A DNA stretch of 14,824 bases, taken from Bacillota bacterium (GTDB lineage Bacteria; Bacillota_I; Bacilli_A; Acholeplasmatales; Acholeplasmataceae). The notes below the pieces were generated by a model. That model saw only the letters and a program-made list of their open reading frames with translations. It made no database searches and was not told the DNA's origin. A program made the position numbers and the translations under genes. The DNA lies in the NCBI GenBank assembly GCA_023458995.1, contig JAEWVV010000186.1, positions 1 to 14,824 of the forward strand, written 5' to 3'. Positions 351-4,218 of this stretch are shown here, piece by piece; position 1 is the first letter of the stretch, and each line of letters starts with the position of its first letter.

Positions 351-575
351 ATTTCCTCCAATTATTTTATTAGTCCGAGAGGAAACAAAAAAGACCAATG
401 CCGATAAGAGGTTCCCACTTCTAACAGTAAGTAGATTAACCTCAGTTGCTTTAGTCTTAATTTGATCAAAATAATATTTGTAATTTTATCTATCTAAACT
501 CTACCACTCGCATAGAGGAGTTAAGATAAATACCGTTACTAAAATACTTTGAGGAAACCAATCCTTCCATCGGAC
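351..575 (-). promoter_or_regulatory. Structured 5' leader of the RNase III-like gene with alternative SD-sequestering pairings
   Basis: Minus-strand pairings seen by eye: (1) a closing helix GTCCGA (575-570) with TCGGAC (378-373), extended by GGAAG (568-564) with TTTCC (385-381); (2) TTATCT with AGATAA and AACTC with GAGTT, about 489-527; (3) a long interrupted stem of three helices: GACTAAAGC (456-448) with GCATTGGTC (401-393), GAGGTT with AACCTC, and CTACTT with AAGTGG, followed by six T's (392-387); (4) GTTTCCTC (386-379) with GAGGAAAT (358-351), which covers the Shine-Dalgarno. Several pairs are G-U on the minus strand but would be A-C on the plus strand, so the RNA is most likely minus. 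Pairing 4 and the extended helix 1 compete for the same TTTCC segment. I do not recognise a known riboswitch or T-box consensus. The long stem plus T-run could terminate transcription or be an RNase III substrate. Confidence 0.6.
387..456 (-). terminator. Terminator-like hairpin inside the leader (possible attenuator)
   Basis: Minus strand GACTAAAGC..GCATTGGTC (8 of 9 positions paired, one G-U) encloses GAGGTT..AACCTC (6 bp) and CTACTT..AAGTGG (6 bp, one G-U). It is followed directly by TTTTTT at 392-387. The stem of about 21 bp is interrupted by asymmetric internal loops, so it is less compact than the terminators after dnaN and gyrA. It would end a transcript of about 190 nt before the Shine-Dalgarno is made. 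Confidence 0.45.
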
Positions 576-3249: not shown

Positions 3250-4218
3250 TTACTTATTCGATATCTTTTTTCTATAGTTATAATCAGATCTGACAATATC
3301 TTTTAAATTAAATTTAGGCACCCATCCTAAAATACGTTTAGCTTTATCGTTGGATGCGATGAGTTCAGCAGGGTCTCCTGCACGACGTGGTCCCATGACA
3401 ACTTTAAGTGGTGCGATTTCGTTCACTGCATTAGCAACCTCTAAAACGGTATAACCTGCATTTGAACCTAAGTTCATCGTTTCAGATTGTCCACCTTTTT
3501 GAAGGTAATGCGCTCCTAGCACATGGGCATATGCTAAGTCACTGACGTGAATATAGTCTCTCACACATGTTCCATCTTTGGTTGGATAATCATTTCCATA
3601 AATGGTTAAGTGATCTCTAATACCAATGATACCTTGTATAGCAACCGGAATAAGATGTGTTAATTGGTCTTTCATCAAACCAATCTTTAAGGATGCATCA
3701 GCACCAGCTACGTTAAAGTATCTGAAGATCACATACGTGAATCCATGAGCGTTTGCTACCCATTTAATCATTTTTTCTGTTGTTAATTTTGTTTCACCAT
3801 ATGGATTAATTGGTAATGTCTGATCATCTTCATGACAAACACCACTTGCTTCACCATAAACAGCAGCTGTTGAACTAAATACGATCTTTTTAACGTTATA
3901 TTCGTTCATAACTTCTAAAAGAATACGAACACCTTCAACGTTGTTATAGTAATACTCTAAAGGAATCTCTACTGATTCAGGAACAACAATTTTTGCTGCA
4001 AAATGCATCACAACATCAATCTTTTCATGATCAAATACATGTTTGATATCTTCTTTAACTCTAATATCAGCTTTATAAAACTTAGCTTCTGGATGAACTA
4101 ATTCCATATAACCGGATGACAAATTATCCAAAATGACAACTTCTTGTCCATCTTTAATCAGTTCATAAACTGTATGTGAACCGATATAACCTGCACCACC
4201 GACAACTAAAACGCGCAT
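3250..4218 (-). CDS. galE: UDP-glucose 4-epimerase
   Basis: This NAD-dependent cytosolic enzyme of the short-chain dehydrogenase type interconverts UDP-glucose and UDP-galactose. Over 322 residues it shows GGAGYIG at 7-13 (NAD-binding glycine motif), the SSTAAVYG strand at 115-122 with Thr117 as the likely catalytic hydroxyl, and YGETK at 140-144 with the catalytic Tyr140 and Lys144. RYFNVAGAD and the late MNLGSNAGYTVLEV are also typical. A GGAGGG Shine-Dalgarno precedes the ATG at 4218. It is the last gene of a three-gene operon, 18 bp after the DUF1361 gene. That context suggests it supplies UDP-galactose for membrane glycolipid or surface glycan synthesis rather than galactose catabolism; no galK or galT is seen. 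Confidence 0.95.
   Translation of the reverse strand: MRVLVVGGAGYIGSHTVYELIKDGQEVVILDNLSSGYMELVHPEAKFYKADIRVKEDIKHVFDHEKIDVVMHFAAKIVVPESVEIPLEYYYNNVEGVRILLEVMNEYNVKKIVFSSTAAVYGEASGVCHEDDQTLPINPYGETKLTTEKMIKWVANAHGFTYVIFRYFNVAGADASLKIGLMKDQLTHLIPVAIQGIIGIRDHLTIYGNDYPTKDGTCVRDYIHVSDLAYAHVLGAHYLQKGGQSETMNLGSNAGYTVLEVANAVNEIAPLKVVMGPRRAGDPAELIASNDKAKRILGWVPKFNLKDIVRSDYNYRKKISNK

Follow-up and report, generated by a model that had tools for sequence, protein, structure and literature searches.

What does an RNase III-like gene do with a leader that can either hide or expose its own ribosome-binding site? The question is raised by the first lines of a 14,824-nucleotide stretch of DNA from a member of the Acholeplasmataceae (the whole of this stretch is called the window here), a piece of an Acholeplasma-type bacterial chromosome whose minus strand carries the first 115 codons of such a gene (positions 2–346, ATG at 346) before the window edge cuts off the rest. 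Around the leader the window holds genes that we take, from their open reading frames, to be dnaA, dnaN, recF, gyrB, gyrA and an Hsp33-like gene. A tRNA gene (Rfam tRNA) at 1190–1278, about 600 bases upstream of the leader, is a possible integration site. The original prediction, made from the letters alone, proposed that this leader is an RNA whose alternative pairings cover or free the Shine-Dalgarno (SD) sequence, and named a ligand, temperature or a protein as possible cues. The observation is confirmed and extends beyond one genome: the leader RNA of this accessory RNase III gene is real and conserved, and it is probably bistable.

The gene fragment is recognized as RNase III by two Pfam models (PF14622, 36.5 bits; PF00636, 29.3 bits, both above the cut-off), as had been proposed, and its closest named relatives, those of Acholeplasma granularum and A. 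equifetale, are 90–91% identical. Close relatives measure about 271–280 amino acids and, like canonical RNase III (TIGR02191), combine an RNase III domain with a dsRBD-like C-terminal part; members of clades B and C (e.g. L025, L028, L035–L038, L102 and L104) have an extra segment that by eye resembles a second dsRBD. The motifs NEVLEF(L/I)GD and ADLFE, presumably the catalytic residues, are kept in seven aligned members. Despite this shared architecture, the family stands apart from the canonical enzyme. Three members scored 90.1, 99.8 and 105.8 bits against the TIGR02191 equivalog cut-off of 166.25, and a canonical rnc gene above that cut-off is also present in all seven host genomes checked. 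In a tree calculated without L032, L056 and L058, where the motif was not found, a 100/100 branch splits the family from five canonical enzymes, with a warning of long branches, and the RNA-bearing members fall into two supported clades of 11 and 14 rows. No PADLOC-DB 2.0 family matched the three members tested at E values up to 0.1.

Directly upstream of the gene, the minus strand encodes a structured leader RNA of about 203 nt (373–575), supported by its folding z-score and by its homologs. Positions 345–580 fold with −67.6 kcal/mol (z −5.40) and positions 373–575 alone with −64.9 kcal/mol (z −5.23), and in both cases none of 200 shuffles was as good. The segments on which the prediction was built lie where it had placed them, and the fold gives each of them a part. 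The outer 5′ strand of the closing helix P1, GTCCGA (570–575), pairs with the outer 3′ strand TCGGAC (373–378), and the helix continues through the inner 5′ strand GGAA (565–568), part of the GGAAG at 568–564; both strands are supported by fold and covariation. Opposite lies GTTTCCTC (379–386), the shared switch strand, whose inner part can pair either in P1 or, as an anti-SD, with the SD GGAGG (355–359) within GAGGAAAT (358–351). Between the strands of P1 the fold places a small junction hairpin GGA...TCC (553–564), which holds most of a second GTTTCCTC (551–558), then the P2 arm, a long imperfect duplex (466–552; helices 4–6 of the alignment) whose tip helix bears the GNRA-type loop GCGA (508–511), and finally the P3 arm (386–464; helices 7–8), composed of the base AAGAC/GTCTT and an inner hairpin.

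The prediction had also put the transcription start on the first base of the closing helix. In our promoter scan the window carries a −35 box TAGACG (605–610), a 17-base spacer and a −10 box TAAAAT preceded by TG (582–587); this promoter ends at 582, leaving six bases before P1, so that transcription would start near 575, the first P1 base. A single site is weak evidence, as the scan returned 11 sites against 7.5 expected. The same placing recurs across the family: the −10 box ends 6–8 bases before P1 in 31 of 32 leaders, L037 (16 bases) being the exception, and the spacer is 17 in 28 of the 32, in a scan limited to 16–18. This count covers leaders other than L106–L108 and includes near-identical ones (L024, equal to L011, among them) and three cut by contig ends. 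Such constancy is strong comparative evidence for the promoter, and because the promoter sits 6–8 bases ahead of P1 in nearly every leader, P1 seems to be made from the first transcribed bases. A helix that begins at the predicted 5′ end of an A/U-rich RNA (GC about 0.35) could be a mere 5′-stabilising structure, or the leader a thermosensor, but neither would call for a conserved fold of several arms in which a tip loop recurs, or for the covarying SD hairpin described below, and we regard both as very unlikely.

Comparison of homologous leaders, which had been set as a test of the prediction, revealed compensatory changes among sequences from Acholeplasma, other Bacillota-like genomes and phage contigs. 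In the fold common to them, the junction closed by P1 contains a very small hairpin together with the two arms, the long P2 and P3. Across the 11 sequences of clade A, 87.2% of the cells are paired, against 47–57% when the structure is slid along the alignment, and 20 of 70 pairs show two-sided changes; for the eight sequences of clade C the values are 90.1%, 41–50% and 17 of 62 pairs, and in each clade 0 of 500 shuffles reached the covariation score. The reference structure in each alignment is the fold of one member, which biases the slide control towards that member. A first MAFFT alignment, analysed with RNAalifold, yielded a pairing that differed in part, and in its place we used one member's fold that is common to most of the others. 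Of 11 single-sequence minimum free energy (MFE) folds, three (L002, L004 and L027) depart partially from the common fold. Clade B (L025, L028 and L032) has the same layout in a largely different sequence.

By eye, the P2 tip of many members is a short helix with a U–G-closed loop (GCGA, GCAA or GAAA) that we take to be of the GNRA type; the tip deviates in L005, L006, L011, L018, L026, L027 and L032. Sequence conservation, also judged by eye, is spread over the helices and the P2 tip and is not confined to the junction. Folding of 14 family leaders, with 60 shuffles each, gave z-scores from −0.77 (L031) to −6.50 (L106), with weak values for L005 (−2.38), L107 (−1.76) and L029 (−1.74). As a control, five of seven canonical rnc leaders gave −2.27, −2.51, −1.30, 0.52 and −0.34; for the other two a start codon was not found. 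Folding counts omit L024, a duplicate of L011, and L103 differs little from L102; not counted as leaders are L019 and L021, where the 5′ half of the RNA is replaced, and L020, L022 and L109, where the gene is a fragment or lies at a contig edge.

Could these repeats act purely as DNA, as sites for recombination or for a regulator? Recombinase-like genes lie beside several copies, and four viral contigs end inside the RNA. Against this stand the two-sided compensatory changes over 200 nt, the G–U pairs on the mRNA strand and the promoter 6–8 bases before P1, and we find an explanation without RNA function hardly credible. The RNA also fits no class in Rfam 15, which gave no match in the leader at gathering thresholds and none up to E 10, neither a riboswitch nor an unrelated RNA, as the prediction had anticipated, and none was found in the leaders of eight relatives' loci up to E 1. 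Near another RNase III locus copy, positions 3423–3531 (minus strand) of L027 match the COG3943 RNA (RF02941, 78.6 bits), so that this region holds another structured RNA besides the leader.

The proposed switch depends on one pyrimidine-rich strand being used in one of two ways, as the bases of the P1 3′ strand complement those around the SD. A degree of pairing with an SD is expected of any pyrimidine-rich strand. When the arms were exchanged between leaders, the SD hairpin formed from a leader's own arms was better than the mean swapped arm in all 25 leaders (0 of 5000 permutations), with a mean of −11.7 kcal/mol for own arms and −8.2 kcal/mol for others, and single swaps can equal the own pairing. 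Within clade C, 1 of 5000 permutations reached as low a value; within clade A the result was borderline (244 of 5000). For P1, own arms were better in 24 of 25 leaders, L005 failing (0 of 5000 permutations; 61 of 5000 within clade A and 161 of 5000 within clade C). The swap test covered leaders other than L106–L108, with L044 skipped. In clade C the SD hairpin has 9–15 bp, reaches past the SD and has species-specific changes on both sides.

Folding of the local tails also paired the SD with the P1 3′ strand, at mean probabilities of 0.57–1.00 in 21 leaders. Against composition-matched shuffled tails, p fell below 0.07 in only 8 of these 21, mostly of clade C, with a Fisher p of 2e-5 over related rows; most clade A members did not reach this level. 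The tail includes the last part of P3 as well, and in L025 it is mainly this P3 strand that pairs with the SD; the SD of L036 was misplaced. As the shuffled-tail test was weak for clade A, we take the swap test as the stronger of the two.

Folding under constraint is consistent with two competing states. When the SD was kept unpaired, P1 formed in 24 of 25 leaders (with only four pairs in L005), L038 being the one without it; when P1 was prevented, its 3′ strand took up the SD in 20 of 25. The free-SD and P1-less states differ by no more than 5 kcal/mol in 20 of the 25. The five exceptions to SD pairing include the window itself, whose P1-less fold has 0 of 7 SD bases on the P1 strand; the full-length fold of the window, in which the second GTTTCCTC is used, agrees with this. 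Full-length ensembles lie on both sides, and the state favoured by energy varies between members. Of 21 leaders folded without the 5′ part, 18 gained in predicted SD pairing, ten of these by more than 0.1; pairing was unchanged in L004 and L007 and lower in L005.

The prediction had further suggested that the second GTTTCCTC makes this a three-way competition. In the window itself the full-length MFE fold does use the second copy. The copy is altered or lost in several relatives, L001 having TTTACTC and no such copy being seen in clades B and C, and a role in competing for the SD is therefore not a conserved feature of the family. The copy forms a small local hairpin, in which L001 has one compensatory change (columns 17/26).

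P1 and the SD hairpin thus appear, by comparison, to be both selected and mutually exclusive. Because both pairings covary, with states of near-equal energy, the leaders seem to have conserved a bistable switch between 'P1 formed, SD free' and 'P1 lost, SD hidden', and the earlier reading of the leader as an SD switch is supported by the comparison of sequences. The leader accordingly unites two features of a translational riboswitch, a conserved domain and an exclusive SD-sequestering structure, the evidence being strong in clade C and borderline within clade A.

How widely is this RNA found, and does it ever occur without the gene? Relatives were confirmed with tblastn at six genome loci (from 46 candidate stretches) and on two of seven viral contigs, and a search with a protein alignment added one more viral contig, the two other loci from that search being repeats. 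Whole-genome searches found the gene in 8 of 88, 8 of 279, 5 of 391, 9 of 247, 4 of 18 and 1 of 6 genomes; these searches overlap in some genomes and used different cut-offs. Phage records gave no match in a DNA search, plasmid and phage records searched by protein held only distant relatives below 60% identity, and the DNA pattern of the clade C tip had no match in viral contigs.

An equivalent RNA is recognisable upstream of the members with enough sequence, with exceptions. Model R1, built without the poorly aligned L005 and L006, found relatives outside the model directly 5′ of the gene in L006 (E 5.5e-16), L034 (3.1e-13), L005 (1.2e-6), L032 (2.2e-6), L036 (1.2e-5), L028 (1.3e-4), L035 (2.1e-4) and L025 (2.5e-4), so that clade B (L025, L028, L032) is reached at E 2.2e-6 to 2.5e-4; matches were weaker in L038 (0.033) and L037 (1.1, partial). 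Model R2 found the divergent L106 (1.3e-5), L107 (1.9e-5) and L108 (5.8e-4), and the window weakly (0.0028). Four divergent members, L023, L029, L030 and L031, had no R1 or R2 match below E 0.9; of these, L023 (z −4.3) and L030 (z −3.6) have structured leaders and may carry further variants of the RNA, with L031 at −0.8 and L029 at −1.7. In both L019 (genome G027) and L021 (G028), other DNA stands in place of the RNA's 5′ half, with breakpoints that almost coincide; the L019 gene also carries a stop. The viral contigs L046, L047, L049 and L050 end 76–125 nt inside the RNA, as if the RNA–gene cassette were a shared repeat that breaks assembly.

Genome-wide scans tied the RNA to one gene. R1, run over 295 genomes, identified six same-sense places in five genomes, both copies in G886 included, and R2, run over 247 genomes, nine same-sense places in seven genomes; all lie 5′ of an accessory RNase III gene. 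The seventh R1 place and the other seven R2 places are opposite-strand matches of the same sites. Two of the nine gene-bearing genomes among the 247 were missed by the R2 scan, G1183, with a gene fragment at a contig end, and G1158, whose leader (L106) R2 did find in a small search. Neither scan, with filters that lose weak matches, found the RNA anywhere apart from the gene. At the canonical rnc loci of the seven host genomes R1 gave no match up to E 1 and R2 a single chance-level match of 31 nt (L060, E 0.78).

A riboswitch class usually, though not universally, serves several gene families of one pathway. Here the RNase III family was the only one found downstream of the RNA in the 295 and 247 genomes, which bears on the proposal that a small molecule or an infection-linked cue stabilises P1 and turns RNase III on. 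That proposal draws on the near-equal energies of the two states and on a layout usual among translational riboswitches, a junction closed by P1 with an alternative that sequesters the SD; there, as here, the P1 strand is common to the folded domain and to the anti-SD hairpin. Unlike those platforms, this RNA has no known ligand; unlike many metabolite riboswitches it serves a single gene family, and its conservation, by eye, extends over the helices and the P2 tip and not only the junction. We consider a riboswitch unlikely. Among the cues originally listed, binding or cleavage by the encoded RNase III seems the most likely, because this RNase III is the only gene found downstream in the scans.

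For 18 gene loci with whole or partial RNA, 71 and 64 neighbour proteins (135 of 159 listed) matched 192 and 247 PADLOC models, respectively, at 1e-10, counts that refer to models and not to proteins. By comparison, 63 neighbours of canonical rnc from seven of the same genomes, a control with fewer loci, matched 11. Among the matches listed are JetB, about 6 kb from the A. granularum gene, BrxL, PglZ and AbiTii in L079, type I restriction, and Cas3c, Cas8c and Cas7c. At L079, L080, L082, L088, L074 and L075, the RNase III gene lies near BREX, type I restriction, AbiL-like, CRISPR I-C and Wadjet-type genes. Paired genes that by eye resemble large serine recombinases lie just upstream in L003, L008, L011 and L048. 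Because the neighbours are rich in defence genes and recombinase pairs recur, the data suggest that the accessory RNase III gene is mobile and defence-associated, and it may itself be a defence gene.

This setting recalls AbiF/RCd22, the closest precedent we found for a structured RNA upstream of a mobile defence gene, in which a conserved structured RNA likewise lies directly upstream of a mobile defence-linked gene (PMC12373285). By analogy, the RNA studied here could act in trans as the nuclease's partner or RNA antitoxin, transcribed from the same start and perhaps excised, with the SD switch secondary. The complex conserved fold and loop and the mobile, defence-gene neighbourhood would suit such a role, and RCd22, an upstream non-coding RNA of a prophage Abi protein, is described as acting in cis and in trans and as binding its protein (PMC12373285). 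However, the AbiF protein belongs to a different family, and RCd22 possesses a terminator of its own and acts in trans (PMC12373285), whereas the window has no terminator-like site between the RNA and the gene. Clade C moreover keeps long SD hairpins that reach past the SD, which a pure trans RNA would not need, and copies away from the gene were absent from the scans of 295 and 247 genomes, whose filters lose weak matches. We hold a primarily trans-acting RNA to be doubtful, if worth serious attention.

We prefer to see the RNA as an autoregulatory leader, or 'operator', that controls the accessory mobile RNase III, which in turn cleaves or binds it, a reading that in our judgement has an even chance of being right. 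Transcription would start at P1, and the RNA would fold so that P1 closes the junction with the imperfect hairpin arms P2, with its GNRA-type tip, and P3. As long as P1 is formed the downstream SD would be free and the gene translated; once P1 is lost, its 3′ strand would pair with the SD and translation would stop. The encoded RNase III would most likely bind or cut the duplex arms, parting the P1 5′ strand from the rest, with the net effect that more enzyme would mean less new enzyme. The comparison of genomes supports four elements of this picture: a fold that is conserved, transcription from P1, a competition between two pairings, and a link to this gene alone in the scans. The direction of the switch and cleavage by the leader's own enzyme are inferred. 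A possible role in phage defence is suggested by the neighbours only. Because a leader that only has to be cut would need no such conserved fold and loop, another binding partner is possible.

The preferred autoregulatory reading has a model in the E. coli rnc leader (rncO), which works through mRNA decay. As in rncO, a structured 5′ leader with a long duplex precedes an RNase III gene, and the role of enzyme target is what we propose here. In contrast to rncO, the enzyme here is an accessory, mobile RNase III, and the fold is larger, conserved across genera and joined to a competing SD-sequestering pairing; this is a comparison of layouts. Autoregulation by RNase III is established, and in S. 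aureus and Streptomyces the enzyme acts in the coding region (PMC3386247). Full-text literature searches revealed no RNase III-linked structured RNA and no RNase III defence system among the matches listed, with a 2017 survey of 224 candidate RNAs lying outside their scope, and a 2021 survey names an Acholeplasma motif located upstream of aroF (PMC8632094).

It is possible, though we advance it only tentatively, that the structured RNA and its dedicated RNase III form a two-part anti-phage module on one transcript, with the leader as sensor. Phage or antisense dsRNA would draw the enzyme off, or a phage factor would block it, and the leader would stay uncut, its SD open, so that more RNase III would be made to destroy dsRNA.

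The finding adds a leader RNA class, absent from Rfam 15 and from the literature listings searched, on an accessory RNase III among defence genes. If the enzyme regulates itself through the switch, the two would form a self-contained dsRNA-sensing circuit, and such a self-regulating switch would help to account for the presence of a second RNase III on mobile elements and for the way in which it is kept safe. Should the RNA act in trans as well, the pair would make up a new RNA–protein defence module.
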